This document shows positions 1,827 to 39,325 of a stretch of DNA of 39,325 nucleotides, in pieces. The notes under the pieces are model-generated. The model ran no database searches and was not told the origin of the DNA. It saw only the letters and a list, made by a program, of their open reading frames with translations. Each line of letters starts with the position of its first letter. The stretch's first letter is position 1. A program made the translations under genes and the position numbers. The stretch covers positions 1-39,325 of the IMG/VR virus record IMGVR_UViG_3300033153_009329, one strand, 5' to 3'. Origin of the DNA: a virus.

Positions 1827-1835
1827 ACATTAGAC

Positions 1836-10100: not shown

Positions 10101-10394
10101 TTAAACTTTCTCCTTAAATCTTTCTTTGAAATTAGCATCTGAATAAGACTGATCGCGCTCTGGTTTATGAACTAGCCAATGACCAGGGCAGATTATTGAC
10201 GTGTTTGTGTATAAAGCAGGGAGTCTAGTTGTAAATTCAGTAAGTGCGTGTTCTCCCATCAAGCAGTTGCAAAGTGGACACTTATCCTTAGTCATCTGCT
10301 CTGGCGGGTCATATTTTTTAAACGTGTCGTTATATACACCTTTTACATATTGCTCAGCTTCTGCTTCAACGGTTTTTTCAATATAAATAGTCAT
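10101..10394 (-). CDS. Small phage protein with CPLC and PGHW motifs
   Basis: A 97-residue protein starting MTIYIEKTVEAEAEQYV. It has CPLCNC near residue 40 and CPGHWLVHKPE near residue 70. The latter, followed by NFKERFKEKV, resembles the end of a widespread small phage protein (PGDWI-x-x-G-x-x-G-E-x-Y ... F-x-x-x-Y-E) of unknown role. The cysteines could bind a metal. Ribosome site GAAGGAGAGATTA. It sits between endolysin and holin, so a part in lysis or late gene expression is possible. Confidence 0.6.
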   Translation of the reverse strand: MTIYIEKTVEAEAEQYVKGVYNDTFKKYDPPEQMTKDKCPLCNCLMGEHALTEFTTRLPALYTNTSIICPGHWLVHKPERDQSYSDANFKERFKEKV

Positions 10395-10897: not shown

Positions 10898-10898
10898 A

Positions 10899-12290: not shown

Positions 12291-12292
12291 AA

Positions 12293-12880: not shown

Positions 12881-12899
12881 TTTTGTCTCCCCTCAAAAA

Positions 12900-15896: not shown

Positions 15897-15898
15897 AA

Positions 15899-16252
15899 TT
15901 AACTAACCGTTATATCTCCATCTGCATACCACAATATCATATCAGAGGTACTGTCAACAAGGCCTAATGCTGAGGTAAAATTATAAAATGATAATATCCT
16001 TTTTGCCGCTCTAACAAATAAAAACTTTCCCGCTGGCCAATCTATTATTGGAATGATACTTCCATCAATTATTTCTATTATTAAATTACCCGCAGTATGT
16101 GGCAGATAAAATGCCGTTGCGTGAAAGATTTTATTTTTATCTATTGCTGTTTCTTGAGTGAAGTTTTTATCTAAAACAACAATATCTCCTTGGGTGATAT
16201 GAAATGATGGTAATGTAGCTGGTTGTGATGAGTTTATCGCATATCCACTCAT
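15899..16252 (-). CDS. Small virion-associated protein between fibre genes
   Basis: A 117-residue beta-rich protein starting MSGYAINSSQPATLPSFHIT, with hydrophobic strands (GNLIIEIIDGSIIPIIDWPA) and ending DMILWYADGDITVS. Its ribosome site GAGGAGAGAAAATA is strong. Placement between the collar fibre and the large adhesin suggests an adaptor or a fibre chaperone. No family recognised. Confidence 0.5.
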   Translation of the reverse strand: MSGYAINSSQPATLPSFHITQGDIVVLDKNFTQETAIDKNKIFHATAFYLPHTAGNLIIEIIDGSIIPIIDWPAGKFLFVRAAKRILSFYNFTSALGLVDSTSDMILWYADGDITVS

Positions 16253-16264
16253 TATTTTCTCTCC

Positions 16265-18541: not shown

Positions 18542-20570
18542 TATTGTCTCCAAATGTTTGCAATAAGCCCGCATAAGCCGAGGGCGGTAAATATTTTAAT
18601 AATCTAGCCGCAGACTTTTCAGATAGCATTGGGAGAATATTTTTCTTTTGTCCAGTTATAATATATTTGGAAAGCCCCTTATCTTCCATGTGTTCCAAAA
18701 TTGGTTTTAAAGCTCTTTTTGAAACCTCTCCCAGCAGACCTCCAGCTAATGCACCCGCACGCCCATGAGCCGCACCCAGAGAAGCACCTCCTAAGGATGG
18801 GACAATTCCTTTTGTTAATGCTTCTTTTATTGCGTTTGCATGAGGCTTATATTTAATATGCAAATCAGTAATTCGTCTAAAAATACCTCTTTCCTCGTCA
18901 TCAAACAAATTACTGTTTTGTACTTCTTTCGAAAGTCTATTAAATATATCTTTTGCTTTTAAAATATCTGAAAAATCTGGTCGCTGTGATTCACCAACTT
19001 TTATTGCTTTACCAAATAGTTTTCTTTTCAAAATCATATCTGGGTCTATATGCTTGGCAGCTTCTCCTTTTGCCATGATTCTTCTAAAATGATTTATAGT
19101 TTTTAATCCAATTTTTGAATTAGATGGGTTGCTTAAATCAAAGTAATCTAAAAGCCTTTCTGTATCTGGCGGCATATCGCTATACTCAGAATATTTGGAC
19201 ATTATGCTAGGTCTGCCAGATGGTGCTTTATGAAATAAATCTTCCATCTCGCCCCAGCGTTCGTTTAGCTGTTTTAAAGTTTTATGGTGCACATCTAGTT
19301 CAGGATGAATTTTAACGTTGTGCTCTAATAAGTCATCAGTGCTTTTTTTAGCATCAAGCAAGGCCTTATATACCCTATCTCCAGAAGGCACGCCAGAATC
19401 GTGGTGATATGCCGTTAATTCATTTATAGCTCTACGATTATCGATATGGTCAGACATCGTTATAGGCTTACTATATTTGGCTTTCATTTTTGGTTCTTTG
19501 GCCATAGCTCGCGCATCTTTCAAACTTTTTGCAATAATAATATTAGGCTCTTCTCCTACTTGTCTGCCTGTTTTTTCAAGATTTAAAAACTTAAGTGCTT
19601 TTCCAGAAATTAAATCAGAAGAGGGTATTTTACTTTCTTTAATTCTATCAATTGCATCGCCAAGTGTTTTTTCATGGCCTTTGCTCTCTAATGGAATCTG
19701 ATATTCTTCATTTTTTAAAGTTTCTGATAATTTCCCATATCCACTATGTAACGCGTTTTTTGTTCTTGTATAATTATCTATCATCGCTTTAGCAGCCTCA
19801 TCTAAATCATGACCACCGAGATTTTTTTGCATGAAAGAACCAACTTTTGAAAGAGTGCTGGCTGCAAGGTGAGCTCCTGGCGCACCTATTGCTTTATATC
19901 CCTTTCCAATTCCATGCGGAATAAGAGCTGCGCCCATACCAGCCGCAGCTCCAGGCACTCCACCAGTTGCCCCACCATATATTCCACCAGCAGTTACAGC
20001 CCTTCTAAGAGGAGTTTTAAGTAATCCTCTACTTATTAGTGTTCCTCCTTTTGATGCTTCTAAGCCTTTCTGTAGCGTTCCTAGACCGCCTTCCGTTGCT
20101 ACCCATGGAATAACCTCTCCAGCAAAGCGGCCTGCTTGTGCTGATGTCGCTTCTGGGTATTCTGGTGCGCCAAATTTTTGTGATAACTCTTCAGGCGCAC
20201 CCAGTCCTTGGTAATATTTCCCAATTCCTGGGACGTGCGACATAATATTTGATGGGAGATTGTATAAGCCAGCAGTCCCGTGATAAAGGCCTGCCGCTGC
20301 TCCACGTAGAACATTTTCAGAGGTCTCTACAGCTCCATAAGGTTTTCCCGCGGCATGTGTTTCTTCTTTTTCTAACTGCGTTTTTATCTGACTTCGAACG
20401 TCTTTAGGTATTTTTTCAGCATCAAAAGTTATATTAGATTCTTCAACTCCAGAATCTAAATCTTTTTTCATCTGCGCAACTTTTTCTTTTGGCAGATGTT
20501 GTTTTAATAGGTTACTCCATTTCTTGCGATCTGTTTGCGGCATATCCGCTAATGATATTATTTTAGCCAT
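18534..20570 (-). CDS. DNA ejection/internal virion protein, gp16-like by position
   Basis: A 678-residue protein; P22 gp16, at this place in the order, has 609. The N-terminal part is polar and helical. Residues about 150-240 are Gly/Ala-rich and hydrophobic (AGGIYGGATGGVPGAAAGMG), fit for membrane insertion, and a second Gly/Ala stretch (GGASLGAAHGRAGALAGGLL) occurs near residue 610. The rest is long charged helix. Such proteins are packed in the head and are injected with the DNA to cross the envelope. It is the third of three consecutive ejection genes and starts right at the stop of the second. The call rests on composition and synteny; direct similarity to gp16 was not testable. Confidence 0.65.
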   Translation of the reverse strand: MAKIISLADMPQTDRKKWSNLLKQHLPKEKVAQMKKDLDSGVEESNITFDAEKIPKDVRSQIKTQLEKEETHAAGKPYGAVETSENVLRGAAAGLYHGTAGLYNLPSNIMSHVPGIGKYYQGLGAPEELSQKFGAPEYPEATSAQAGRFAGEVIPWVATEGGLGTLQKGLEASKGGTLISRGLLKTPLRRAVTAGGIYGGATGGVPGAAAGMGAALIPHGIGKGYKAIGAPGAHLAASTLSKVGSFMQKNLGGHDLDEAAKAMIDNYTRTKNALHSGYGKLSETLKNEEYQIPLESKGHEKTLGDAIDRIKESKIPSSDLISGKALKFLNLEKTGRQVGEEPNIIIAKSLKDARAMAKEPKMKAKYSKPITMSDHIDNRRAINELTAYHHDSGVPSGDRVYKALLDAKKSTDDLLEHNVKIHPELDVHHKTLKQLNERWGEMEDLFHKAPSGRPSIMSKYSEYSDMPPDTERLLDYFDLSNPSNSKIGLKTINHFRRIMAKGEAAKHIDPDMILKRKLFGKAIKVGESQRPDFSDILKAKDIFNRLSKEVQNSNLFDDEERGIFRRITDLHIKYKPHANAIKEALTKGIVPSLGGASLGAAHGRAGALAGGLLGEVSKRALKPILEHMEDKGLSKYIITGQKKNILPMLSEKSAARLLKYLPPSAYAGLLQTFGDNNG

Positions 20571-21941
20571 TTAAAAATCCCATTTCTCTTTAGATGATTT
20601 AACAGCCCTACTAGTTGGTGCTGCTGCTGCTCCTGGAGTAGGAGCAGAAGTTCCCCCTGCTATCGGTACATAAGGTATAAATTTCTCTGCCTCACCTCTC
20701 CCTATTACTCCTAAAGAAACATTTAGACCCCTATTTAAAGTGTTTAAATATTCTCCATATAGGTTAACTGTCTCTACAAATTGAGAATAGGTCATATTAT
20801 AGAAATCACTTGCACCACTAAGACGTAAAGCATCTTTTGTTGATTGGTCTGTATGCGGATCCATCATTAAATTAGTAACATCTTTTGCAATAAGAGGTAA
20901 TTGTTTTTCAACGAAAAACCTAGCCTTAATATAATTAGGGTCTTTTGTTGTTACCCCACTCATCCCTAATATTTTATCTTTCATCATTTTTATGCTCCCA
21001 CCAACACCCATGAAACCTTTTACTGCTGAAAGATTTGCTTTTGCATCATTTAATCCTGTTACAGCAACTACTCCTCTAACTCTTGCATTTGCTATTGCAG
21101 CAGTAGTGCTCAATTTTTCGTTATAAGAACGCAAAGTATCTTTTTCCGCATCAGTCAGTTCTGTATATGCTGAAGAATCCCCACTAGGTGGTTGAGCTCC
21201 AGGTTGAACAGCAGTAGGAGGAGCTGTTTGTGGAATTTGCGGTGTAGTTAGTTGAGGCTGGCCTGTTGGCGGGACTCCTCCAGTTAAATTTTGTTGTTGG
21301 CCAACAAATGCATTAGGAGAGGATGCAATCCCTTGTAAATTTTGCGGGTTTATTCCTCCTGATAAATTTCCCATAAGTGATTGAACTGCATTGGAAACAT
21401 TTTGATGTTGTTGTGGCTGTAATGCATTTGACGGAGGCAAACCATTGCCTGAACTTGTAGGAGCAGACTGTAACAAATTTGGCACTCTACCCGCCTTGAC
21501 AAGGGCTATATTTTTCCATGCTGTTGGCATTCTTGACACTGCTTTTACTAGCTCGCTTTGATAAACGTTCCAATATTGATTAGTTCTATTATCATTAGTT
21601 CCCCATTTATTTTTTGCTTGAAGATATTTTCCATATGCTCCAGCAGCACCACCCCCTGTTGACGCTAAACTAGGATCATTTAATTGAGCCATTATTTGCT
21701 GTGCACGAGCCATTTTTGACTCAGCACCAGCTTTAGCGGTAAGTCCTTCGTAAGGTGTTTTGGCTTGTAAATTTGCAGCTTGAGCTTTAGTAAGTCCAGT
21801 TTGAGCTTTTATTAAAGGCTCTTTAGCTTTCATTTGCTTGAATTTAGCAAGCATTGACAGGGCACTTAAAGTATCACTAAACGGATTTACAGGTGTCGGA
21901 TACGGCCGTACTGGTAAAGAAACTTGTGGCATTACAGCCAT
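20571..21941 (-). CDS. DNA ejection protein, gp20-like by position
   Basis: A 456-residue protein (P22 gp20: 471). It starts MAVMPQVSLPVRPYPTPVNP. An alanine/glutamine-rich helix follows (KAQTGLTKAQAANLQAKTPY), then a long Pro/Gln/Gly-rich linker around residues 160-255 (QPQLTTPQIPQTAPPTAVQP) and a helical C-terminal half. The order of helix, flexible linker, helix and its place between the gp7-like and gp16-like genes suggest a pilot protein that leaves the head with the DNA. Ribosome site AAAGGGGGTTAAA. No enzymatic motif seen. Confidence 0.65.
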   Translation of the reverse strand: MAVMPQVSLPVRPYPTPVNPFSDTLSALSMLAKFKQMKAKEPLIKAQTGLTKAQAANLQAKTPYEGLTAKAGAESKMARAQQIMAQLNDPSLASTGGGAAGAYGKYLQAKNKWGTNDNRTNQYWNVYQSELVKAVSRMPTAWKNIALVKAGRVPNLLQSAPTSSGNGLPPSNALQPQQHQNVSNAVQSLMGNLSGGINPQNLQGIASSPNAFVGQQQNLTGGVPPTGQPQLTTPQIPQTAPPTAVQPGAQPPSGDSSAYTELTDAEKDTLRSYNEKLSTTAAIANARVRGVVAVTGLNDAKANLSAVKGFMGVGGSIKMMKDKILGMSGVTTKDPNYIKARFFVEKQLPLIAKDVTNLMMDPHTDQSTKDALRLSGASDFYNMTYSQFVETVNLYGEYLNTLNRGLNVSLGVIGRGEAEKFIPYVPIAGGTSAPTPGAAAAPTSRAVKSSKEKWDF

Positions 21942-21952
21942 TTTAACCCCCT

Positions 21953-22600
21953 TTATGCCATTGCTACCATCATAGCGATCATCATTGCAGATTCAGCCAT
22001 TTGCTGCTCGTTTGCGTCACTAGCTGCATCACCAGCCGCATCTGATGCAGATTGCTGGCCTTGCATTCTCGCTATATTAGAACCTATGCCCATGTAACTT
22101 TGAGCTATATCTTTAGACGCCCCCATTCCAATTTGACCCAGCGCACCTTCTCCAGCCATCCCTTTTTGAAATGTACCCGCTTGTTGCTGATAATATTTAC
22201 TTGCATCTGCTTGTGTTAGGGTTTGAGCATATTTTTGCTGTTCGCGAGCTAATGCTCCTCCTCCTGACATTCCCATTGCGGAAGCTTGATTAGTGGACAT
22301 TTTTAGGCCTTCTTGTTCGGCCATTTTGGCCTCGGGGGACATCGAATAACCCTGCATCATTTGTTGCCGAAATGCTTGCGGGTCCATCATTAAATTAGAG
22401 CCAGCTTGATATTTATCAAGAGACCCGAGGCCATATTTTTCGTATGGTTGCATCTCCCCAATTGCTTTACCCCCATACCATTTAATATTTTCCTCGGGTG
22501 AAAGAACAGTGTTACCAAACATCTGATTATATTGTGCTATAGTCATTTGACTAGGATCTGTTGGCCCCGAACCTGATGCACCTGCACCTCGTTGAAACAT
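21953..22600 (-). CDS. DNA ejection protein, gp7-like
   Basis: A 215-residue protein (P22 gp7: 229) very rich in Met, Gln, Gly and Ala. Typical stretches are GLKMSTNQASAMGMSGGGAL followed by AREQQKYAQ, which resembles the 'n-a-l-a-r-s-g-m-x-x-s-G-g-x-l-r' pattern in this class, and a hydrophobic end MAESAMMIAMMVAMA. The ribosome site TTGGGGAGCGAAAT is strong. P22 gp7 is cut at its N-terminus when built into the head; whether that occurs here is unknown. It heads the three-gene ejection block. Confidence 0.7.
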   Translation of the reverse strand: MFQRGAGASGSGPTDPSQMTIAQYNQMFGNTVLSPEENIKWYGGKAIGEMQPYEKYGLGSLDKYQAGSNLMMDPQAFRQQMMQGYSMSPEAKMAEQEGLKMSTNQASAMGMSGGGALAREQQKYAQTLTQADASKYYQQQAGTFQKGMAGEGALGQIGMGASKDIAQSYMGIGSNIARMQGQQSASDAAGDAASDANEQQMAESAMMIAMMVAMA

Positions 22601-22623: not shown

Positions 22624-23370
22624 TTATGTTGTATTATCTATCCTATACTTTTCTAGTGTGTGATCAATTCTTAATATTGAGGGTTTTACACCCGTTTCTA
22701 GCTTTGTATTAAATATATTAAAGTCTGTTTTAGATTGACTATTTACGTTGATTATATAATGTAATTTGTTTGGACGCGAGTCATTATTTAATGTAGGCGG
22801 TGAAATGTGAGCATTAATAAGCTGTGGTTTACCAGATTCAGTTGCAGGAACTATAATATTACCGCTGTCGTGATATTCATCAACCGTTCCATTTCCGTTG
22901 TGGTCATATCCTAACCTAAATTTGATGTTTAAAGGTTTACTGCCAGCAGTTTCAGTTTTTTTATTAGCTAATAATAAAGAAAAGTTTAAATTTTTACCTT
23001 GTGCAGTTGCTATTTTATTTTCTTGATTTTGTGAAATAACTAAATTTTGGCCTACATCATTTCCTTTGATATTAAAATATTGAGCAGAACCTGTTTCATT
23101 TGAATAAATTGAAGATGCGTAAGTTGTTGGATTAGCTTCAAAATTATTTCCATCAATATTCCATCTTTGGGCAAAATCACCAGCTCCAGTTAAAAGAGTT
23201 GGTTCGAAATTAAAATCTCCGTTTAATAAAAGAGAGGGGTTGTGTAAAGCACTTTTGTTCAAAAAATCATCGTGCAAATCAGATAACCATTTCTTCCAAG
23301 AATCCGAATTTATTTCTTCATTTATAGGCGGTTTTGAGAGTAATTTATAACTTTTATTTAAGAATGTCAT
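22624..23370 (-). CDS. Virion protein in the tail-needle position
   Basis: A 248-residue protein at the place P22 uses for needle gp26 and gp14. The N-terminal 35 residues are helical (INEEINSDSWKKWLSDLHDD). A beta-sandwich follows that starts NPSLLLNGDFNFEP, the usual opening of phage carbohydrate-binding or fibre-tip modules, and continues with DHNGNGTVDEYHDSG, a calcium-loop-like sequence. It lacks the long heptad-repeat needle of gp26. It may be a shorter plug with a knob, a fibre, or a decoration protein. The ATG at 23370 is chosen; a TTG two codons earlier is possible. It overlaps the gp10-like gene by 17 bases. Confidence 0.5.
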   Translation of the reverse strand: MTFLNKSYKLLSKPPINEEINSDSWKKWLSDLHDDFLNKSALHNPSLLLNGDFNFEPTLLTGAGDFAQRWNIDGNNFEANPTTYASSIYSNETGSAQYFNIKGNDVGQNLVISQNQENKIATAQGKNLNFSLLLANKKTETAGSKPLNIKFRLGYDHNGNGTVDEYHDSGNIIVPATESGKPQLINAHISPPTLNNDSRPNKLHYIINVNSQSKTDFNIFNTKLETGVKPSILRIDHTLEKYRIDNTT

Positions 23371-24793
23371 AGCCAACCAACAATTTATCTATCATAAAAT
23401 CTCCTAAACCAAAATATTCGATTTTAAATGTCCAATATTGAGCAACACCAGCATTTCTCCAGATTGTTTTGTTTTTGTATTTACCAGTTTTACCCAAGCC
23501 TCCAGGTATTTTGTTAGAATAATTTATCCCTCTATCTTTTGAAAGGCTTAGGTAAGCAGGTATAGCCCTTTTATTTATAAAATCTAAGCCTTCTTTGCAT
23601 GATAATTCAATGCTATTTACTCTAATATATGATTCATCTTTAATAGAAAATGTTGTGCTTATTCGAGTGCGTTTTATCTTTTCATTATTGTTAGTGTGAT
23701 TTTTTTCATCAATCACATATAAATTTCCGCTCCTATAATCTCCAACTATATCTTCACCATTAAAAAATGCGTGATGCTGTGCAATATTACGCCCGCCTGT
23801 TAATGCTTCTTTTTCACTCCATGTGAAAATTCCATCCTTAAGACTGCTTTCAGTAATATCAAAAACCCATGTGTTATTATCAAAAGATACTTCATAAAGC
23901 GAATGTCCGTTTTCTGAATACATAAAGGCAGATGCCTCTGCAATATTTTTATAAGAAGTAAGCAATTTTTGTAAAGATTTGGGCGTTATCGATATGGCTC
24001 TGTCGCCTTCTGATATCATGAAACTTAAAACTCCATTTTCATCTTGTGCGAGCCATATTATATAACCAGAGGTAGTTGCAATCGAATCTTTAGCAATACA
24101 GCCATATTCCATTGCTTGAACTCTGTTGGGAACAAAAGGAAAATCTTTTCCACCTTGGTTTTCCCAGATTTCAGTAAATTTCTTTCCAAACAAAAATATA
24201 CTTTGCTTTAGCACGCGAACGGCGATTAATGTATCTGGTCGTTGGTCAAAAGGTTCTTCGTCAAAGGCATTGTATGTTGTTAAATCGTTATTTGCAGAGA
24301 TGACAAATTTATTTGAATCGCCTTCGACAACTATTGTAAATCCATCTTTAAAATCAACGTCAGTTGGGCTTATAGGAAAAGCATCTGCTGTTATTTCTTC
24401 AAAAACCCCAGTATTTCTGTTATGAGAATATCCTTTATTACCATCAACAAATATAGTTTGATTCGAGTTGTTTGATTTTGCTGCTATATATCCAGAAGCT
24501 GTTCCTATATCTCCTAATTTAGTTAAGATAAAAGATGAGTCATATATATAAACAACAGAACCAGAGACAACATATAAATATTTTTCTCCGTTTTGTTCGC
24601 CTGCATATAACAACCTACAATTTTTACCTTCTGGTAAAGTGTTTTTTAGAGTTAAACCTGCGGTTGGAATAAGAACATTATTTTTTGTTACAGCATCAGT
24701 ATGCACAAGCATATTTATAAGACGTTGATTGTCTAATATATTAGAGATGCCATAATTAGAACCCCCGATTATGTTTATTTCACCAACAGCCAT
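23354..24793 (-). CDS. Tail hub / packaged-DNA stabilisation protein, gp10-like
   Basis: A 479-residue protein (P22 gp10: 472). It starts with a beta-propeller-like series of strands and has the features of this family: the opening MAVGEINIIGGSNYG with an NxQRLINMLVH stretch, the middle DKFVIS-like strands, and the typical segment LFGKKFTEIWENQGGKDFPF, which closely follows the family's 'l-F-G-x-x-T-x-E-x-w-x-x-x-G' pattern. In P22 it binds under the portal and gp4 and helps seal the DNA in. It lies directly after the gp4-like gene with a 14-base overlap, as in P22. Confidence 0.85.
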   Translation of the reverse strand: MAVGEINIIGGSNYGISNILDNQRLINMLVHTDAVTKNNVLIPTAGLTLKNTLPEGKNCRLLYAGEQNGEKYLYVVSGSVVYIYDSSFILTKLGDIGTASGYIAAKSNNSNQTIFVDGNKGYSHNRNTGVFEEITADAFPISPTDVDFKDGFTIVVEGDSNKFVISANNDLTTYNAFDEEPFDQRPDTLIAVRVLKQSIFLFGKKFTEIWENQGGKDFPFVPNRVQAMEYGCIAKDSIATTSGYIIWLAQDENGVLSFMISEGDRAISITPKSLQKLLTSYKNIAEASAFMYSENGHSLYEVSFDNNTWVFDITESSLKDGIFTWSEKEALTGGRNIAQHHAFFNGEDIVGDYRSGNLYVIDEKNHTNNNEKIKRTRISTTFSIKDESYIRVNSIELSCKEGLDFINKRAIPAYLSLSKDRGINYSNKIPGGLGKTGKYKNKTIWRNAGVAQYWTFKIEYFGLGDFMIDKLLVGYDILK

Positions 24794-25517
24794 TGGAATA
24801 CCGATTTTTAGAATAGATTGAATTGTTAACTAGCACATTATCTGTGATAGCACCCTCTGATTTGTTTATGTGTTTGTTGGTATAATTCAAAAGTCTTTTA
24901 TATTCTCTATCGTTTTTTGCACTCCAAACTGAGCCGTGATAAAAAGAAATAAGTTCGTATGCAAGAGCATATCTTAAAAAATCGTTCCAATTATAAGGTA
25001 TCTTTATTTCTGATAATTTCATTTCAGACTTTATATCTACAAACGGAAATCGCGCTTGCATGTCAATTTCATATTCTTGATTTGGCGTTGGAAAAAAAGT
25101 TATATAGGAAACATAAGGTTGATTTTCCAGTAAATAATTAACTGGCCTTCCTTCAGAACCTAAGTTGAAAAAATTATTGTAAACTTGATTTGAACTTACC
25201 TCAGACAATGGATAAATTGGTCTATCTGTATTTTTAAATCTTAAGTTTAAAAATTCTATAGATTGAATCATGCTTTTATCAGCAGAAATATTTGTGAAAT
25301 CAATACCACTTTCGTATTTTGGCTGACCTGCAACTGTGTTGAAAGTAATTAAAGTTGAATATGGTATTTTAATTAATGCTAATTTTGTATTAAGTAAACT
25401 TAATGCTCGGCAAAAGTCCCCGCCTGGAATAGTATCAAAATCTCTACTAAATTCTCCAATCATCTCAAAAGCAAGCGTGATAATATCATTTACAGTTGTA
25501 TTAATCATATTATACAT
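24780..25517 (-). CDS. Head-to-tail connector, gp4-like tail accessory factor
   Basis: A 245-residue protein. The first half, TTVNDIITLAFEMIGEFSRD followed by a run like RALSLLNTKLALIKI, is the typical helical start of P22 gp4-type accessory factors, and IPYNWNDFLRYALAYELISF is the conserved later helix. It is longer than P22 gp4 (166). The protein sits below the portal and lengthens the DNA channel. Between it and the coat gene lie 111 bases with short inverted sequences but no clear promoter. Confidence 0.85.
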   Translation of the reverse strand: MYNMINTTVNDIITLAFEMIGEFSRDFDTIPGGDFCRALSLLNTKLALIKIPYSTLITFNTVAGQPKYESGIDFTNISADKSMIQSIEFLNLRFKNTDRPIYPLSEVSSNQVYNNFFNLGSEGRPVNYLLENQPYVSYITFFPTPNQEYEIDMQARFPFVDIKSEMKLSEIKIPYNWNDFLRYALAYELISFYHGSVWSAKNDREYKRLLNYTNKHINKSEGAITDNVLVNNSIYSKNRYSNGCW

Positions 25518-25628: not shown

Positions 25629-26885
25629 TTAAGTTAAAACTCTGATCGCTAAACGTTTATCAATACCAATAGCAAATTGAGTATAAACCCGAGTGAACTC
25701 TTGATCTGATTTTATATCACCCTGCATTCCAATTCTCATGCTAATGCCGCTGTCTGGATCTGTGTACATCGCACCAACAACATTAGATAACTTTTTCATT
25801 TGCATTGGACAAATATATAATGCTTTTGGAGTGTAAACAAAATTAGATTTATAATTTCCAACAACATAACCAGGAGTTCCAGCAACTACTTGACCACTAA
25901 CATTTTCATTTGCATGTGTACTTACTGCTTTAGCTCGAGTGTAAATAATTGCAGGGTCTATTTTAACTCCAGTAACAACAAGAGCAGCAATTACAGCACT
26001 ATCTTCAGTTACTCTTAACTGCAATTGACGTTCCGTTAATTCATCTCCGTTTTCATTTAATGGATAAACACCTTTTGAAACTACATCAATAGATATTAAA
26101 TCGCCTACTAATAGTTTTTTGCCATTTGCAGCAGTATCCGTGAACGTAAGGTCGATAGTAGTAGCACCATCAGGGATATTGTTTGTAACCGTACAAGTTA
26201 TCGCTGGCGGTAGCTCAGAAACATGATTAGGATTATGAGTAGTCCCAAAAATTCCTGAATAACCAGATAAATTCTCAAGAGTTCCAGAAGCCAAGATTTT
26301 ACCAACTTGCTTTAAATTAAAGTTGTTTTGGAAAAAACCCATGAGTTTTGATTTCTGAGTATTGGTTATAGCTAAATATAATTTATCATCCCAGCATAAA
26401 TCCTCAGAAAATGCTCTAGCTTGGTCAAATGCATCCCATGAACTTAAGGATGTTCCTGGAATACCTACAAAGTTAAAAACTTTGTTATGCAATGCTTTGG
26501 CGCATAAAATATCAGATTTAGAAGCAATCTTACGCATAGATGGCTCTAAAATTTTATCCTGTTTGGCCTCGGTATCTAATGCCCCTTGTGAATAAAGCCA
26601 TTTAGCTTGATCATAATTAAATGCAGTATTTTGTTTTAGCTGAACAATAACTGGATAAGTACGATCAACCATATTAGAAGCTGTTACAACATCTCCTTCT
26701 TGCAAATCAATATTAGAATTCATTCTTTGGTGGAATGTTGATCCAACAGAATAAGGACCTTCGCCCCCATAGGGATTTGCACTACCCGTTGCTTTATAGC
26801 CTGTGCGAAAATAAGTTGATAATTTACTGTATAAAAAAATAGCTCGTTTGACTAATGAACTAGTTACAAATTGGTTTGTTGGCAT
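25629..26885 (-). CDS. Major capsid (coat) protein, P22 gp5-like
   Basis: A 418-residue coat protein that builds the icosahedral head (P22 gp5: 430). The start MPTNQFVTSSLVKRAIFLYS has a CTGGGGAGAAAAC ribosome site; a longer frame upstream (to 26954) runs into the scaffold gene and is not used. The region SDILCAKALHNKVFNFVGIP and the insertion-like part PAITCTVTNNIPDGATTIDL (an I-domain-like beta module near residue 235), then QFAIGIDKRLAIRVLT at the end, fit this family. Position between scaffold and gp4-like genes confirms it. Confidence 0.9.
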   Translation of the reverse strand: MPTNQFVTSSLVKRAIFLYSKLSTYFRTGYKATGSANPYGGEGPYSVGSTFHQRMNSNIDLQEGDVVTASNMVDRTYPVIVQLKQNTAFNYDQAKWLYSQGALDTEAKQDKILEPSMRKIASKSDILCAKALHNKVFNFVGIPGTSLSSWDAFDQARAFSEDLCWDDKLYLAITNTQKSKLMGFFQNNFNLKQVGKILASGTLENLSGYSGIFGTTHNPNHVSELPPAITCTVTNNIPDGATTIDLTFTDTAANGKKLLVGDLISIDVVSKGVYPLNENGDELTERQLQLRVTEDSAVIAALVVTGVKIDPAIIYTRAKAVSTHANENVSGQVVAGTPGYVVGNYKSNFVYTPKALYICPMQMKKLSNVVGAMYTDPDSGISMRIGMQGDIKSDQEFTRVYTQFAIGIDKRLAIRVLT

Positions 26886-26923: not shown

Positions 26924-27817
26924 TTACATGGCAGCAAACTGCTCCGCTTCCCACGCCTCAAACTGTCTTGAAGGACTTAAATGGTCATTATTAATGACAG
27001 TTTTCCCAGCAGGTTTAGTGTTAATAGCAGCTTGATTTGATGCAGGTTTGTTTTTAACAGAAGATTTCGTATATAATATTTGTGCCATTTTGCTTTTTTG
27101 CTGAACTTGCGGAAGTGATAAAATATCTTCCCATTCATCGGGGTTTTTATCTACCCATTCCACCATATTTTTCAACAGTCCTTTTGTTTCTACTCCTGTT
27201 TCGTCAGTAATAGAGCAATTTGAAGCATATCTTGCTAATTCGCCAATATCAGTGTTTCTAAGTCCTGAATCATTTATTTTGGAAAGTGTTTTTTGCAAAT
27301 TAGTATTATTTAATACAATATCTTCTATTTGCGCGCCCAGGATAGCATTTTGTTCATCTGCATTTCGAACAAATTGTCTCTCCTGTTCTTGAACTCCCTC
27401 ATTAAATTTAAGAATCCTTTGATTTTCGGCTTCTTTATAAACATCTGCATAAACTTCGTCATCTTTTGATAGTGGTTGCCCAGTATCTGGATGAAGTAAA
27501 GGTATTTTGCTAGAAAAGTTATTTCCTGTTTCAAATTGAACAGTTTTTTGCTCTTCCCGCTTGTTACGCTTTAATTGTTTTTCGATGGCTTTATCGATGT
27601 CTTGTTGAGTAAATAACTTTTCTTCTGGCGGTGTAGTAGTAGAAGAATCATCTTGCGAGTTTTTTTCTGCTTCTGATTCAGACGACTGTTGATTTTCTGG
27701 TTCGTTAGAATTAGTTTCTTCTTGCGAAGGTTGATTTTCTTCAGACGCTGAATTATCCCCAGATTCCTGGTTATCATTTTCTTGAATAGATTGACTATTA
27801 TCGTTATCTTCTGGCAT
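26924..27817 (-). CDS. Scaffolding protein, P22 gp8-like
   Basis: A 297-residue protein (P22 gp8: 303) that should guide coat assembly and leave before packaging. The start MPEDNDNSQSIQEND follows an AAAGGGGAGTTT ribosome site; an in-frame upstream ATG at 27874 belongs to a repeat-encoded leader. The first 85 residues are very acidic and Ser/Gln-rich, then EKLFTQQDIDKAIEKQLKRN opens a long helical part, usual for podovirus scaffolds. The C-terminal end is the likely coat-binding region, FEAWEAEQFAAM. It sits between portal and coat. Confidence 0.88.
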   Translation of the reverse strand: MPEDNDNSQSIQENDNQESGDNSASEENQPSQEETNSNEPENQQSSESEAEKNSQDDSSTTTPPEEKLFTQQDIDKAIEKQLKRNKREEQKTVQFETGNNFSSKIPLLHPDTGQPLSKDDEVYADVYKEAENQRILKFNEGVQEQERQFVRNADEQNAILGAQIEDIVLNNTNLQKTLSKINDSGLRNTDIGELARYASNCSITDETGVETKGLLKNMVEWVDKNPDEWEDILSLPQVQQKSKMAQILYTKSSVKNKPASNQAAINTKPAGKTVINNDHLSPSRQFEAWEAEQFAAM

Positions 27818-27833
27818 AAACTCCCCTTTACAT

Positions 27834-30160: not shown

Positions 30161-31759
30161 TTATACCCAAGCAGATGTTACAACATTCCTGTTGTTTCCA
30201 CTATTTGTTTTTTGTACAGTTTGTGTGCCTGTGGCCGTAAGACAATTATATTGGCCAGCATCGTGGATGTCACTCCACGGATGTAACTTTGACGGAGTTT
30301 CTTTTATGCCCATAACGCCCTCGGTTTTTGTTGATGGATAATTATAGTCTTGTACATAACCATTATATAATACGGGACACCCATTTTCAGAAACTAAATA
30401 TCCAGGTTGACCGCCAACCATTTTGTTCAAAAATCCTTTTACTGAATCCAGGCGCATAATTATAGAATTTGTGCGCGCTGGCTTTGCATTAAATCCACAA
30501 TCACGTAATATTTTAAATTTATCTCTACCTTCTCCATCTGACTTGTCTACTCCTGACGGGTCAAAAGTCACAATAAATTTATTGCGCGGTATATGAGATA
30601 ATGTTGTGTTTAAATACGGTATCACTCTATCATCCAAAAATTCTTTCAGTGATGCCCTAACAGTTGTAAATTCTTTTATGCTTACTCTTTTGCCATTTAT
30701 AAATTGATCAAATAAAGCTGCTGGAGTAAGACCAAAGTCCAAACCGATGTATATTGGATGATTAAAATCAAAAGATAATTCAGAAACTGAATGAATATCA
30801 GCATTAAATGATTCGTAAACCACTACTCCTCTGGTTAATAATCCATACTTGCCTTCAAGCATCACGTGTATATATGATTTCTCGCGGTTTTTAAGCAAAC
30901 CTTCGTAATATCCTTTTTCTAAAAATTCCAGATTTTCTGCTTTTGGATTTACATAATATTCTCCATTGTCTTTTTGCAAAACAGCAGGTGGATAGTGATA
31001 AATTTCTTGGTAATCTTCTTTGTTTTCTTCGAATAAAATTTCTATCCAATGCCCTTTTGGTGGTGCGTTAGTATCCAACAACATGCGCTTTAAAACTATA
31101 TCTGGGTCAGCGCGATCAATCTTTGCTGGATATCTACCTATTCGATCACGACACCAGTCAAATATTTCTTCCTCTTGTTCGCCAGCTTCGTTAAATAAAA
31201 AATATGTGACTTCTAGGGATTTTATTCTTTCTTGAATATTTCCAACATGGTCGAGAGCAAGTCCCTCTAGTTCTATATACACTTGCCTGCAATCTGTTAC
31301 ACCTTCAATTGCGCAGAAAAAACTATAGTAGCGGCGGATAGGTTGGTCTGTTTTTTTTACTGGCTCAATATCTAGTGATAACATCCAAGCATCTAATGTT
31401 TTTACTATTGTTGTCTTTAACTGCTCATAAGTATTTCTTATTATTTTCCCGCGAGACCTATAGACTCCATCCGTACATTCTGGAAACATGCACGCATACA
31501 TTATACATTCCATCACCATCGCAACTGTTTTTCCACAGCCAACAGGACCAATAAGACATTTGTTTATTAATTCTGGTGGTGCATCATGGAATTTTTTTGA
31601 TGTTGTGGACGGCACATATTTTTTGCCGTCGGCGAATACAATACTTCCATCTTTTTTGATTGTTAAACTTATTTTCGGGGGCGGAGCGTGCAGAATACTA
31701 TCTAAGATAGTGCCAGTTTTTTCTAACTTGCTTTCAAAGCTCCCATAATTTGCCATCAT
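30161..31759 (-). CDS. Terminase large subunit
   Basis: A 532-residue packaging motor. Walker A is GPVGCGKT (residues 71-78). A Walker-B-like segment, VTYFLFNEAGEQ, lies near residue 195. The nuclease half shows IYIGLDFGLTPAALFDQF near residue 340 and FIVTFDPSGVDKSD near 390, where the aspartates fit the RNase-H-like active site. It would pump DNA into the head and cut it. The double ATG start (MMANYG) follows a TGCTGGGGAGCA site; either ATG may be used. Portal follows after 22 bases. Confidence 0.95.
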   Translation of the reverse strand: MMANYGSFESKLEKTGTILDSILHAPPPKISLTIKKDGSIVFADGKKYVPSTTSKKFHDAPPELINKCLIGPVGCGKTVAMVMECIMYACMFPECTDGVYRSRGKIIRNTYEQLKTTIVKTLDAWMLSLDIEPVKKTDQPIRRYYSFFCAIEGVTDCRQVYIELEGLALDHVGNIQERIKSLEVTYFLFNEAGEQEEEIFDWCRDRIGRYPAKIDRADPDIVLKRMLLDTNAPPKGHWIEILFEENKEDYQEIYHYPPAVLQKDNGEYYVNPKAENLEFLEKGYYEGLLKNREKSYIHVMLEGKYGLLTRGVVVYESFNADIHSVSELSFDFNHPIYIGLDFGLTPAALFDQFINGKRVSIKEFTTVRASLKEFLDDRVIPYLNTTLSHIPRNKFIVTFDPSGVDKSDGEGRDKFKILRDCGFNAKPARTNSIIMRLDSVKGFLNKMVGGQPGYLVSENGCPVLYNGYVQDYNYPSTKTEGVMGIKETPSKLHPWSDIHDAGQYNCLTATGTQTVQKTNSGNNRNVVTSAWV

Positions 31760-33664: not shown

Positions 33665-34471
33665 TTATACCTGTTCACCTGCTTTCTTTGATTTCAATCT
33701 TAGTTCTAGTGCTATTAATTTGTTTTCCTCAATTAATTTTAATCTTCTGAGGTTTAGAAGCAGAGATTTTTTCATGTTCATTTCTCTTTTTCCTTCTACG
33801 TTCTTTTTTGCTTCCTCTTTGATTTCTTTGAAAAAGAAATCAATGTTGCTTTGCAGTGCTTCTATGGGAGGCAAATAAGATGTGGATGTTATTGTAGTTC
33901 TGGTAGAGTCATTTTTTATATACAAATATTCTGCACGTCGTTTGTACGCATCTAATATGCCTAGCATATGTTCTTTTGCGTCCTCCAGTTTTTCTTTATT
34001 AGTTTCGCATGCCGCGGACATTTTTTTTAAATCTTTGGCGATAGCAAACATACATTCCTTGTGTTCTTTTTTTGCTGCTTCCGCATATTGTTCGACGTGG
34101 TCACCCCAATATCGGTGCACTTTACACGATAAATAATCTTCAATTTTGGAACTTCGGAAATTTAATTGCATAGGGCAATCTTTATACCCAAACAATTCTA
34201 ACTCTAATATTTTTTCTATTTTTTTGCCAGTGTTATAAAAAATTTCTATTTTTATTTCCATTTTGTCGTCAAGATTGTTAATGATTGACGTGCGGGTTTC
34301 GCAGGCGTTTTGTTTAGCACACTCCAAAAAATCATAGACAGATATGCCTATGTCATCTTTGTTTTTGTTAAGATTTGCAATTTCATCCCGCAGACTTAGG
34401 ATTTTTGCTTCTGCTTCTCTTTCTTCTGCTTCTGCTGCTTCTGCTTCTGCTGCTTTTGTTTTTAACATCAT
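33665..34471 (-). CDS. Coiled-coil protein with Glu/Ala repeats, 268 residues
   Basis: Starts MMLKTKAAEAEAAEAEEREA, a repeat from GCTGAAGCAGAA-like DNA, followed by ILSLRDEIANLNKNK. The middle contains a beta-like stretch (KMEIKIEIFYNTGKKIEKIL) and cysteines; the end is again long helix (LLLNLRRLKLIEENKLIALE). The ribosome site AAAGGAGCAAAGA and ATGA overlap with the small-terminase candidate show tight coupling. It may be a packaging or assembly partner, an inference from position. Confidence 0.6.
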   Translation of the reverse strand: MMLKTKAAEAEAAEAEEREAEAKILSLRDEIANLNKNKDDIGISVYDFLECAKQNACETRTSIINNLDDKMEIKIEIFYNTGKKIEKILELELFGYKDCPMQLNFRSSKIEDYLSCKVHRYWGDHVEQYAEAAKKEHKECMFAIAKDLKKMSAACETNKEKLEDAKEHMLGILDAYKRRAEYLYIKNDSTRTTITSTSYLPPIEALQSNIDFFFKEIKEEAKKNVEGKREMNMKKSLLLNLRRLKLIEENKLIALELRLKSKKAGEQV

Positions 34472-35133
34472 TCTTTGCTCCTTTCTTGTGCGATTAATCC
34501 TTTAATTTTATCAGCATACGGCAGCAACTGCGCCAATTGATTTTCCATGATTTTAAATTTCTCTTGCATCGATTTAAACTGTGCAATTTCTGTGCGTGCA
34601 ATCAGCATCTTAACCTCTGCCTCTGCAAATTTATAGTTTGTGTTATTTTTGCGCAGGCGTTTGTTGATGTCGTTTAATTGTGCAATTGGGTCGTCATGGT
34701 GCTGCATCGTCAATCGCGCTAGCTTACGATATGTTGCTGATATACACATATTATTACCGCGCAGATATCCTTGTATAATTTTCGCACGTTCCTCTCTGCA
34801 ATTTTTATCGACCATTTCTTGCACAACATTTGAATTGTTGTCGTAGCCATACTCAATCCCCGCGCGCGTCGCGTTCATATATTTTGTTAGCCATTTTTTG
34901 CGCAATTCAATCTGTTTGTCTTCATTTATGATGCTGTACAAAAAATTACCACTGTAGCCAACGGCTTGGGATGCGCGACTATCTGATACACCTGTCGCCA
35001 ACAGCTCTATCGCCGCCGCTATTTTTTCATCCTTGCTCATTTTGTCTACATTTTGCACAATGTCACGCTGCGCATTAGTCAGTAATGCCAGTATCTCTTT
35101 TTGATGCCCCGACCTTTTTTTTGGCTTGTTCAT
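34468..35133 (-). CDS. Terminase small subunit candidate
   Basis: A 221-residue protein. The start MNKPKKRSGHQKEILALLTN follows an exceptionally purine-rich GGGAGGGGGAGC site; a longer frame to 35181 exists but runs over the promoter's start region. Residues about 35-80 look like a helix-turn-helix: EKIAAAIELLATGVSDSRAS followed by QAVGYSGNFLYSII, of the kind small terminases use to bind pac DNA. The C-terminal half is long helix (QEKFKIMENQLAQLLPYADK), fit for ring assembly. It is the first gene of the late operon. Small terminases usually stand next to the large one; here six genes intervene, so a late regulator is the alternative. Confidence 0.55.
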   Translation of the reverse strand: MNKPKKRSGHQKEILALLTNAQRDIVQNVDKMSKDEKIAAAIELLATGVSDSRASQAVGYSGNFLYSIINEDKQIELRKKWLTKYMNATRAGIEYGYDNNSNVVQEMVDKNCREERAKIIQGYLRGNNMCISATYRKLARLTMQHHDDPIAQLNDINKRLRKNNTNYKFAEAEVKMLIARTEIAQFKSMQEKFKIMENQLAQLLPYADKIKGLIAQERSKE

Positions 35134-35186
35134 TTTTTGCTCCCCCTCCCGTGATCGCCTGTCCCGCCACGCACTAGACATATAAT

Positions 35187-35249: not shown

Positions 35250-35283
35250 GGGGGTGTGTAGGTGTGGTTACCTACACACCCCC
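35250..35283. repeat. Perfect 14-bp GC-rich hairpin in the divergent region
   Basis: GGGGGTGTGTAGGT and ACCTACACACCCCC surround a six-base loop, GTGGTT. It is the strongest stem in the window and very G/C-rich in an AT-rich genome. There is no T-run in the right place on either strand, so it is not a typical terminator. It lies between the leftward late promoter and the rightward promoter at 35380, and may be an insulator, a protein-binding site, or a structural element for packaging or strand initiation. Confidence 0.85.
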
Positions 35284-35286
35284 AAT

Positions 35287-35318
35287 ATTATGCATAGATA
35301 CTGCATAATATGCATAAT
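35287..35318. promoter_or_regulatory. Dyad cluster, possible operators
   Basis: ATTATGCAT (35287-35295) and ATGCATAAT (35310-35318) form an inverted pair, and GCATA-A-TATGC (35303-35313) is an internal palindrome. The cluster fills the region between the GC hairpin and the rightward promoter. It may bind a regulator that sees both promoters. Only the symmetry is seen. Confidence 0.5.
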
Positions 35319-35379
35319 CTAGCTACTTTAATGTTTAATTATTCACACAAAAAAAATAGGAATTATTTGAAAAAAAGAC

Positions 35380-35418
35380 TTGACAGATTATACTACGGTA
35401 TATATACTACGATATATA
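35380..35418 (+). promoter_or_regulatory. Rightward promoter with two TACTAC repeats
   Basis: TTGACA (35380-35385), a 17-base spacer and TATACT (35403-35408), the same boxes and spacing as at 1836, including the shared first part GACTTGACAGATTATACTAC. Two 14-bp units, TACTACGGTATATA and TACTACGATATATA, follow each other at 35391-35418. It should drive the operon from 35465 and be controlled together with the early operon. Confidence 0.78.
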
Positions 35419-35864: not shown

Positions 35865-36056
35865 ATGAGAATATACACAACAGATTCAAACGCCATGTCT
35901 TTTTTTGACGGAGAAAATATGGATTTTTTCAAACCCTGGATTAAACAAGGAACGCTCAAATATGACAAATCAACTGGCATACATAAATGCACACAGGCCA
36001 GATACATGGAAATTACTCACGCACTTTTTGACAAGCAACTTAAAAAAGAGGATTAA
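35865..36056 (+). CDS. Small protein of the MxIYxTD family
   Basis: A 63-residue protein starting MRIYTTDSNAMSFFDGENMD, then FKPWIKQGTLKYDKSTGIHK, ending FDKQLKKED. It is similar along its length to the first half of the next protein: MDIYITDTNVL, then LDPYIASGDLTYNDNTDQW. So the two are paralogues. Ribosome site AAGAGGATTAAATT. Its last third lies inside the right copy of the 115-bp repeat; a part of it, out of frame, was copied to 8896. Function unknown. Confidence 0.6.
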   Translation: MRIYTTDSNAMSFFDGENMDFFKPWIKQGTLKYDKSTGIHKCTQARYMEITHALFDKQLKKED

Positions 36057-36107
36057 ATTATGGACATCTACATAACAGACACTAACGTATTAACAACATT
36101 AAATTAC
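35993..36107. repeat. Right copy of the 115-bp direct repeat
   Basis: The partner of 8896-9010 in direct orientation, 112 of 115 bases equal. Here it covers the end of one intact gene, its spacer with ribosome site, and the start of the next intact gene, so this is the original context. The distance between equal points of the two copies is 27,097 bases, the size of the circle that recombination would release. Confidence 0.97.
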
Positions 36108-37387: not shown

Positions 37388-37710
37388 ATATCACTGACTT
37401 AGAAAACCGAGGTTATAAAATTAATTGGGCATCTACCCGGCATGTTGACGACAGGCTTTATTTCATAAGCTCCGTTAAAACCAAAGAAAAAACATTTATT
37501 TATGCTGGCTGGCAAGAAGCACATAATAGTTATAAATATGAAGAATTTATCGCACTAGAAAAATCTAATTTTCGGCAACACAGAAAAATAAACAAGTTGA
37601 GGAGATATTTTAGAGAGATTAAAAATTATGATGATTTTTGCGAAATGGTGAAGCGTTTTAAATTAAGTTTGGATAAACATAAACTAAGAGGAAATAAAAA
37701 TGAACGATAA
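37384..37710 (+). CDS. Hypothetical protein, 108 residues, with shared FREIKNYDDF block
   Basis: Starts MNITDLENRGYKINWASTRH after AAAGGAGGAGCAC, with a beta-like middle (RLYFISSVKTKEKTFIYAGW). Its C-terminal third contains FREIKNYDDFCE, identical in residues and nearly so in DNA to a block in the next gene. Basic C-terminus LDKHKLRGNKNER. The two overlap by 11 bases. Unknown function. Confidence 0.55.
   Translation: MNITDLENRGYKINWASTRHVDDRLYFISSVKTKEKTFIYAGWQEAHNSYKYEEFIALEKSNFRQHRKINKLRRYFREIKNYDDFCEMVKRFKLSLDKHKLRGNKNER
37608..37645. repeat. 38-bp direct repeat, copy 1 (copy 2 at 37831)
   Basis: Bases 37608-37645 equal 37831-37868 except one C/T change. Both are read in the same frame, giving FREIKNYDDFCE in two otherwise unlike proteins. 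The near-perfect DNA identity points to a recent transfer of a short segment, or to selection on the DNA itself. Confidence 0.9.
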
Positions 37711-37954
37711 AAGTAAAAGTTATAAAAAAGGTTACAAAAATGGTTACAAAGACGGTTACGAAGACGGTTTTAATCGCTACGAAGAAGATTATGAGGATCA
37801 TAGCGATGATGAAGCAGGTTATCTTTACAGTTTTAGAGAGATTAAAAATTATGATGATTTTTGTGAAAATGATGGACTTTGTGAAAAAGAGTATAAAGAA
37901 GGGTATGACGATGGTTATTCTTACGGCCACGAAGAAGGTTTTGATAATGCATAG
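37700..37954 (+). CDS. Protein with GYxDG repeats
   Basis: An 84-residue protein made of GYKxGYxDGYxDGF repeats at both ends (KKGYKNGYKDGYEDGF, then EYKEGYDDGYSYGHEEGF). Between them lies an acidic stretch and the FREIKNYDDFCE block shared with the previous gene. Glycine every fourth residue, with aromatic and acidic partners, resembles the deca-GX3 motif of Yae1-type proteins and of several phage/plasmid orphan proteins, which form tight helix packing. Ribosome site AAGAGGAAATAAAA. A 20-residue frame (37947-38009) follows and couples to the next gene. Confidence 0.6.
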   Translation: MNDKSKSYKKGYKNGYKDGYEDGFNRYEEDYEDHSDDEAGYLYSFREIKNYDDFCENDGLCEKEYKEGYDDGYSYGHEEGFDNA

Positions 37955-38507: not shown

Positions 38508-38549
38508 TAATATTAATATTTTATATTATTATTTAATATTAATATTTTA
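38508..38549. repeat. AT-rich direct repeats of the origin
   Basis: TAATATTAATATTTTA occurs at 38508-38523 and again at 38534-38549, with only A/T between. Such repeats serve as the DNA unwinding element of iteron origins. It lies about 40 bases upstream of the first iteron. Confidence 0.75.
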
Positions 38550-38587: not shown

Positions 38588-38820
38588 CGAACTATCACAT
38601 ATTGTCTACAAAAAAGGGCGGAACTATCACATATTGTCTACAAAAAAGGGCGGAACTATCACATATTGTCTACAAATATTTTCTTAAATTTGTCTCTGTA
38701 CAGCAGTTATTAACAGGTTATCCACAGGATGTTAGTATTTTGATGAAATATTGTACAAAAACAGGCGGAACTATCACACATTGATAACGAACTATCACAC
38801 ATTCACACATTCACACATTC
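38588..38820 (+). other. Iteron origin of replication
   Basis: Five copies of GAACTATCAC start at 38589, 38621, 38653, 38768 and 38789. The first three are part of exact 32-bp units (GAACTATCACATATTGTCTA then CAAAAAAGGGCG), so they sit on one side of the helix. The last two are 21 bases apart and continue ACATT. A series of ACACATTC repeats follows (38796-38820). A DnaA box lies between the two groups. This is the layout of Rep_3 replicons, where Rep monomers bind iterons and dimers link origins to limit copy number. Confidence 0.93.
38718..38726 (+). promoter_or_regulatory. DnaA box
   Basis: TTATCCACA is a perfect match to the bacterial DnaA box consensus. It lies between the third and fourth iterons. 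It indicates that initiation uses host DnaA along with Rep. Confidence 0.85.
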
Positions 38821-38925
38821 GCAGATAATATATTACCCCGTTTAGTGGTAAAATTACTAGATTTGGCAACTAAATGGAGAAATATTGCACAAAATCAGCC
38901 TAAACTATTCATTTTTGTATACTAA

Positions 38926-39006
38926 ACCATAAGTTCATATGGTAAAAAAGCACTTATATGAAAAAAACAAGTAAAATAAATGCTTTTTAAAATTGCGTGT
39001 GATAGT
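38926..39006. promoter_or_regulatory. rep control region with dyad and reversed iteron
   Basis: A dyad ACCATA-AGTTCA-TATGGT lies at 38926-38943, and a reversed iteron core, GTGTGATAGT (reverse of ACTATCACAC), at 38997-39006, 45 bases before the rep start. In iteron plasmids Rep dimers bind such a site to repress their own gene. TAGTAT near 39003 might be the -10 box, though no good -35 is seen. A GTATAC at 38917 resembles the early-operon motif. Confidence 0.6.
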
Positions 39007-39050: not shown

Positions 39051-39325
39051 ATGAAAAGTGAGAAAAAAATTATGATAGCTAATGAATTAATCAGCGCAAA
39101 TTACACAACATCTTATTCACTTCAAGAACAACGAGCACTCTTATGGGTAATCACAAAATTAAAAAAAGGAGATATTGACTTAGTTGAGAAAAAATTAGAT
39201 AAGGAAATGAGCATTCCTTTAACTGATTTTTCGGAATTCATGGGAATCGACAAAAACCAAGCTTATCGAGACTCAAAAAAAATATTCAAAGCATTGTCAC
39301 GTAAAACCATTGAGCTAAAAAATGA
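39051..39325 (+). CDS. rep: Replication initiator Rep, N-terminal part
   Basis: The first 91 codons of the initiator, open to the window end. The start follows a CAGGGGAAAAC ribosome site. The text KKIMIANELISANYTTSYSL followed by QEQRALLWVITKLKKG is the classic N-terminus of Rep_3 proteins, where N-x-L-x-x-A then L-s-x-x-E-Q-R begins the first winged helix. SIPLTDFSEFMGIDKNQAYR follows, the helix-turn-helix of that domain. The protein continues at the window start: the last codons read ELKN and join DVKKNHW there when the 13 shared bases are merged. The origin lies immediately upstream. Confidence 0.9.
   Translation, partial: MKSEKKIMIANELISANYTTSYSLQEQRALLWVITKLKKGDIDLVEKKLDKEMSIPLTDFSEFMGIDKNQAYRDSKKIFKALSRKTIELKN
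39313..39325 (+). repeat. Terminal overlap with window bases 1-13
   Basis: AGCTAAAAAATGA is found at both ends. Merging gives an open Rep frame; simply abutting the ends gives an early stop. A 12-base partial copy also occurs at 61-72, so the join could in principle be at that point, which would shorten Rep by 20 residues. Confidence 0.85.

Follow-up and report, generated by a model that had tools for sequence, protein, structure and literature searches.

An iteron replicon beside P22-like virion genes in an uncultivated virus: a candidate phage-plasmid

Introduction

The DNA analysed here, a viral stretch of 39,325 nt (the window), begins and ends inside a gene for an initiator of the Rep_3 family, and it also carries virion genes of P22 type. 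The locus raises the question of whether the window is one complete circular molecule, and whether the virus is maintained in its host as a plasmid. The recognised phage-plasmid groups described in PMC11652158 have siphovirus or myovirus particles.

Results

Closure of the circle inside rep

Positions 1-13 are identical to positions 39313-39325 (AGCTAAAAAATGA), and comparison of the two ends of the 39,325-nt window gave no longer overlap. The probability that two random positions of the window match over 13 nt is 4.5e-7. With one copy of the 13 bp removed, 39051-39325 followed by 14-503 reads as a single open frame of 254 aa; with both copies kept, a stop comes after four residues. The two halves of the protein abut in the Rep3_N profile (Table 1), and the merged protein matches Pfam Rep3_N unbroken over residues 8-157 (96.1 bits, cut-off 22.4) and Rep3_C over residues 168-230 (59.9 bits, cut-off 21.1). 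In a separate profile search of the whole record, the 5' half scored 43.9 bits. When the merged protein is aligned in a set of six sequences, the region of the join differs by no more than 2-3 additional residues. One other in-frame join was noticed, through positions 61-72, where 12 bp of the end sequence recur; it would remove 20 residues, and its Rep3_N score falls to 75.2 bits. The early module on the '+' strand is continuous across the join, from 35.4 kb to 39.3 kb and then from 1 to 9.2 kb, as is the GC skew.

Because of the 13-bp overlap, the merged 254-aa frame and the abutting profile halves, we read the window as almost certainly a circle with a unit length of 39,312 bp. Very probably, then, the record spans the entire circular genome (39.3 kb) of an uncultivated virus, opened inside rep. 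A preliminary description of this DNA had claimed that the last 13 bases equal the first 13, that merging them gives a Rep_3 frame of about 254 residues, that a stop follows at once without the overlap, and that the genome is a closed circle of about 39.3 kb. All of this held, the circle being backed also by the gene block that crosses the join, and the comparison with a Rep_3 profile over the whole length that was suggested as a check gave a good fit through the junction.

Table 1. Features of the window, with coordinates, strand and the evidence for each
Feature	Position	Strand	Evidence or remark
rep 5' part (residues 1-91 plus overlap), Rep_3 initiator	39051-39325	+	Rep3_N profile 3-76, 44.3 bits alone
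rep 3' part (bases 1-13 repeat 39313-39325)	1-503	+	Rep3_N profile 80-141, 48.3 bits; Rep3_C
13-bp end overlap, the circle's join	39313-39325		identical to 1-13
AT-rich inverted repeat beside iterons	38509-38546		candidate unwinding region
Three tandem 32-bp iterons, core GAACTATCACATATTG	38589-38684	+	repeat search
DnaA box TTATCCACA, between the two iteron groups	38718-38726	+	motif search; only perfect one in window
Two more iteron cores (GAACTATCACACATT), 38768-38783 and 38789-38804	38768-38804	+	repeat search
Inverted half-iteron ACTATCACA, 45 bp before rep start	38998-39006	-	9-mer count
Sigma-70-like promoter/operator element, copy 1	35376-35418	+	TTGACA-17-TATACT
Sigma-70-like promoter/operator element, copy 2, in replicon arc	1832-1874	+	shared with 35376-35418
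RecE-like/YqaJ exonuclease	2903-3799	+	phrog_434 2e-62; Pfam YqaJ 1.7e-21
RecT ssDNA-annealing protein	3813-4706	+	Pfam RecT 1.5e-33; phrog_148 7e-59
RusA-like Holliday junction resolvase	8419-8934	+	phrog_244 4e-11; 3' end enters 115-bp repeat
115-bp direct repeat, copy 1	8896-9010	+	97% identical to copy 2
115-bp direct repeat, copy 2	35993-36107	+	97% identical to copy 1
Holin	9699-10100	-	phrog_3427 1e-15
Lytic transglycosylase-like gene, last of tail block	10394-10897	-	phrog_3108 3e-39
Tail and receptor-binding genes	10394-18574	-	phrog_327 tail protein 2e-4 for 16265-18574
Two genes (20571-21941, 18534-20570) in gp20/gp16 place	18534-21941	-	position only
gp7-like DNA ejection protein	21953-22600	-	phrog_598 2e-8
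gp10-like head closure Hc3	23354-24793	-	phrog_578 2e-74
gp4-like tail accessory factor	24780-25517	-	position; phrog_12985 4e-9 (unnamed family); colinear L013 homologue 3e-19
P22-type coat protein	25629-26885	-	Pfam P22_CoatProtein 1.4e-11; phrog_283 2.5e-21
Scaffold protein candidate	26924-27820	-	position; weak 2e-4 matches, ORFs in L138 and L058
Portal, P22 type, 720 aa	27976-30138	-	phrog_156 3e-51; 197 related ORFs in collected loci
Terminase large subunit TerL	30161-31759	-	phrog_2 3e-14; colinear relative in L013 9e-77

Initiator and origin

Pfam profiles and an alignment of F-plasmid RepE to the merged protein (query residues 2-230) identify a two-winged-helix Rep_3 initiator over its whole length. 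It is 32-37% identical to plasmid Rep proteins of Geobacillus, Planococcus, Sutcliffiella and Piscirickettsia. Single-protein scans of viral contigs gave no close relatives of Rep, portal or TerL, and a scan of the same kind over genome contigs gave none of Rep. Searches for a host gave no candidate: the best Rep match in 143 genomes of a Legionella MAG's order is 28% identical, and the matches to RecT and the lysis genes are scattered.

In Rep_3 origins, Rep monomers bind the iterons and dimers bind an inverted operator, as with RepE of F and RepA of pPS10. All five direct iterons of the window lie within 0.5 kb upstream of rep, and 8-bp TCACACAT repeats come after the cores of the second group. 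The half-iteron 9-mer has six copies in the 39-kb window against 0.36 expected, all of them in 38591-39006, five direct and one inverted. The inverted copy is likely the operator for Rep autoregulation, a function that we infer, as a single inverted half-site was found. Direct iterons adjoining rep, a DnaA box and an AT-rich stretch make up the layout of a Rep_3 replicon, and the arrangement of iterons and DnaA box reads as that of plasmid origins of the F/RepE type. The plasmid replicon claimed in the preliminary description is supported at the sequence level by an intact Rep_3 gene, iterons and a DnaA box. The iteron sequence is absent from all viral contigs searched, and a search of the origin DNA against PLSDB gave one weak partial match and nothing else.

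Virion, tail and lysis genes

The P22 order is kept on the '-' strand from TerL through portal, scaffold candidate, coat, gp4 and gp10 to gp7, and the P22-type portal, coat and gp10/Hc3 in this order mark the genome as that of a P22-like podovirus. The two genes in the place of gp20 and gp16 had no convincing profile or homologue matches as ejection proteins, and no needle (gp26), gp14 or tailspike was recognised in profile and homologue searches of the window ORFs. The earlier claim of a full virion set is too strong for the latter reason; it stands for TerL, portal, coat and gp10 and for the gp4-like and gp7-like genes. The transglycosylase-like product at the end of the tail block is about 40% identical to phage lytic murein transglycosylases. 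Of the relatives found, the nearest is L013, a contig of 10.7 kb that is colinear over TerL, portal, coat and gp4 and too short for a replicon to show. Against phage records the best portal match is about 24% identical, and P22 is absent among the best 30 of 50 matches. An HTH-like gene at 34468-35136 was considered as a repressor or small terminase and set aside, its AlphaFold model being too poor (pLDDT 59).

Early genes

Profile searches of the window found neither a tyrosine integrase nor ParA/AAA_31, and Pfam scans of its ORFs found no ParB, toxin-antitoxin, partition or addiction genes. Among the ORFs scanned with Pfam and PHROG, no CI-like repressor and no helicase, primase or polymerase was recognised. 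The early traits of Lederbergvirus (integrase/attP, C2/Cro immunity, gp18/gp12 replication) were not found in the window, and close similarity to these phages is lacking. The searches yielded neither an integrase nor ParA nor a second replication gene, which makes Rep_3 probably the only replication initiator of the genome; as the only one found, it probably serves lytic growth as well.

Several further elements of the window were observed. Three consecutive genes at 4703-5938 have similar N-termini (MIxYxxSDYxF...), a local family expansion with repeated starts. A single tRNA gene (1253-1326) with a CAT anticodon is called Met and could be tRNA-Ile2; if that identity holds, it would serve ATA codons, which make up about 33 per 1000 in 13 window genes. 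Ahead of this tRNA gene, a promoter-like site at 1216 contains the palindrome ATACTAG-CCG-CTAGTAT. A long GC-rich palindrome (GGGGGTGTGTAGGT...ACCTACACACCCCC) at 35250-35290, in the divergent region between the late and early modules, is a candidate terminator, operator or packaging site. A small protein with KxGYxxGYxxGY-type repeats, weakly like Yae1_N, is encoded at 37700-37954, and near its gene a 38-bp segment at 37608-37645 recurs at 37831-37868.

Two arcs and a shared promoter

The two copies of the 115-bp direct repeat, with three mismatches and a longest exact stretch of 65 bp, separate two arcs of the circle, one of 12.2 kb with the replicon and recombination genes and one of 27.1 kb with the virion and lysis genes. 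Repeats so placed would be left behind when two circles fuse into a cointegrate, which is the origin they suggest; less likely, they mark the spot where an assembler joined separate molecules into a chimera. The repeat overlaps the beginnings of a pair of related small genes (MDxYITDTNVLT...) and also the RusA-like gene at its 3' end, so that the C-terminal tail of the RusA-like protein may have lost its original frame. The promoter/operator element is present in each arc (93% identity over 43 bp, E 6e-11), which points to common control of both. At both copies of this strong promoter TATACTAC repeats stand 14 bp apart; at these two early operons they are candidate operators of a repressor.

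Surveys for the same combination

Rep3_N was found in none of 100 records with relatives of the P22-type portal or gp10 (viral contigs, phages and two plasmids), an absence that is only partly informative because many of the records are fragments; as a control, the same search detects both rep halves in the window. Nor was Rep_3 found in nine PLSDB 'plasmids' recovered through a P22-type portal or gp10, two of them already among the 100 records, or in P22 and F116. Integrase was present in 8/9 of these 'plasmids', and also in P22 and F116. PLSDB entries with a P22-like portal come from Acinetobacter seifertii, E. coli, Salmonella and Arsenophonus nasoniae. With no Rep_3 in any tested and an integrase in nearly all, they were rejected as precedents, and they are probably excised or mis-filed prophages. 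Seven such records filed as plasmids (NZ_CP061617.1, CP061693.1, NZ_CP123553.1, NZ_CP146567.1, NZ_CP063485.1, NZ_CP081778.1 and NZ_CP043906.1) have P22-like portals with an integrase and without Rep_3, and may for that reason be excised or assembled prophages and not true plasmids.

In the converse direction, 18 viral contigs that carry a relative of Rep were examined; a phrog_156 portal occurs in three of them (two of the matches weak and on short fragments, the strongest on the 45-kb contig G285), and gp10 in none. Rep_3 was detected in 3/46 bacterial genomes with a portal relative, and in these three the fetched stretches of the Rep and portal loci had no 40-mer in common. A P22-type portal with a Rep_3 replicon is thus rare but not unique, and its combination with P22 coat and gp10 was found here only. 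No other record searched has the same combination of iteron replicon and P22-like particle genes.

Discussion

A proposed life cycle

Judged from sequence, the genome qualifies as a phage-plasmid, with a plasmid replicon and structural, packaging and lysis genes on what the assembly indicates is one molecule. We consider it fairly likely that this complete 39,312-bp circle is the genome of a podovirus in the broad P22 virion class which is temperate and has no integrase. After infection, the DNA would circularise. Rep_3 would bind the iterons adjoining its own gene and, acting with host DnaA at the single box, melt the adjacent AT-rich DNA; it would then recruit the host replisome, a step proposed because phage genes for a helicase, primase or polymerase were not found. 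Binding of Rep to the inverted half-iteron at its own promoter would limit Rep synthesis and copy number. During productive growth, the resolvase and RecE/RecT would help to form concatemers, and these would be packaged by headful through the terminase and portal of P22 type. Plasmid maintenance in the host, the use of Rep in both phases, copy control and headful packaging are steps that we infer. The copy-control architecture, the lack of an integrase, the repeated promoter/operator elements and the precedents of F116 and VvAW1 argue for plasmid life, and the failure to recognise partition, toxin-antitoxin or CI-like repressor genes argues against it; because of the latter, it is Rep and the iterons that carry the case for a temperate life.

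Alternative readings

It is very improbable that the window is a linear piece of a larger plasmid or prophage with a coincidental end match: the overlap of just 13 bp is indeed below customary assembler k-mers and terminal-repeat cut-offs, but a chance match has a probability of about 5e-7, and the Rep halves meet both in frame and in profile coordinates. A record with a mere 13-bp end overlap, under the usual cut-offs, can therefore be a complete genome. A chimera, in which the assembler joined a Rep_3 plasmid of about 12.2 kb to a 27-kb P22-like fragment at the 115-bp repeat, is less far-fetched and still improbable. It would account for direct repeats 97% identical at both arc borders, for the GC content of 31.8% in the early arc against 35.4% in the late arc, and for the absence of Rep_3 from all 100 records with P22-like genes. 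The repeat copies, however, differ at three sites and share no exact stretch above 65 bp, and the 43-bp promoter/operator element is common to both arcs. In tetranucleotide composition the arcs differ no more than is ordinary, since 125 of 197 rotations give a difference as large. The total of 39.3 kb is in keeping with the size of P22-type genomes (33.6-40.5 kb in relatives, 41.7 kb in P22). The contents of the arcs are complementary, the 27-kb arc alone being without any replication or recombination gene, and RecE/RecT with a RusA-like resolvase are typical phage early genes.

The remaining alternative concerns lifestyle. P22-type headful packaging yields circularly permuted DNA that assembles as a circle without being a plasmid, so the circular map alone is no proof of a plasmid. 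The virus might be a strictly lytic or pseudolysogenic phage of the P22 class that recruited a Rep_3/iteron origin from a plasmid to initiate its lytic replication. Rep_3 is the only replication gene found, counterparts of the O-like and DnaB-like proteins of P22 are absent, and repressor, partition and integrase genes went unrecognised, all of which would suit such a phage. Yet iterons with an inverted half-iteron are the architecture of copy-controlled plasmids, the repeated promoter/operator elements suggest control by a repressor, and two other tailed phages with a Rep_3-type initiator, KS14 and D6, are plasmid prophages. We regard the lytic reading as rather unlikely, and prefer that of a phage-plasmid.

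A more specific history of the phage-plasmid is offered tentatively, as a somewhat doubtful proposal: in a podovirus of the P22 lineage the whole early region would be a plasmid replicon, one Rep_3/iteron origin serving vertical and lytic replication. It would have arisen by a single crossover between an iteron plasmid of about 12 kb and a virion module of about 27 kb, and the arcs could part again at the 115-bp repeats. If the phage-plasmid reading is true, a compact podovirus without integrase and with a textbook iteron replicon would mean that the P22-type virion class, too, can switch from integration to plasmid life by a swap of the early module, and the genome would be a convenient small model for studying the use of a single initiator in copy-controlled as well as runaway replication.

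Comparison with known systems

Salmonella phage P22 (Lederbergvirus) has the same order and identity of head and neck genes, but it integrates by means of a tyrosine integrase and replicates with the O-like gp18 and DnaB-like gp12. F116 and the F116-like phages of Pseudomonas (Hollowayvirus) are podoviruses with the same order of terminase, portal, head protein and Hc3; F116 is only a distant relative of this genome, with 65 kb, a tyrosine integrase and no Rep_3. It is reported to be extrachromosomal (Miller 1977, as summarised in PMC5217972), and phiC725A, a relative of F116, both integrates and can persist in episomal form (PMC5217972). Vibrio VvAW1 and Thalassomonas BA3 share with the present genome a related portal, a size of 37-39 kb and P22-like virion genes. 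In VvAW1 no integrase was recognised, and a plasmid lifestyle has been proposed for it; unlike this genome, it has a CI-like repressor (PMC3558961) and no Rep_3.

The F-plasmid RepE and other Rep_3 replicons, including that of Acinetobacter RepM, show homology over the whole length of Rep, iterons, an inverted half-iteron and a DnaA box. They differ in that Rep identity is at most about 37% among the plasmid proteins aligned and that here the replicon is linked to a virion module. Burkholderia KS14 (P2-like, 32 kb) and Escherichia phage D6 (P1-like, 91 kb) are tailed phages with a Rep_3-type initiator, with Rep identities of 22-23% to the one described here, and both have myovirus-type virions. 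The IMG/VR contig G285 (3300033463_000266, 45 kb; L309-L311) has Rep_3, 22-bp iterons, DnaA-like boxes and a P22-type portal (phrog_156 5e-31), but its coat matches phrog_371 and not the P22 coat family, it lacks gp10/Hc3 and an end overlap, and its other early genes differ; it is no more than distantly related, and is an independent combination of phage and plasmid. The preliminary description had called a podovirus kept as an iteron plasmid unusual. As regards lifestyle this was too strong, since a plasmid state is precedented by F116 and suggested for VvAW1, and phages living as plasmids are already known; as regards mechanism it stands, since an iteron/Rep_3 replicon in company with P22-type portal, coat and gp10 was found in no other record searched.
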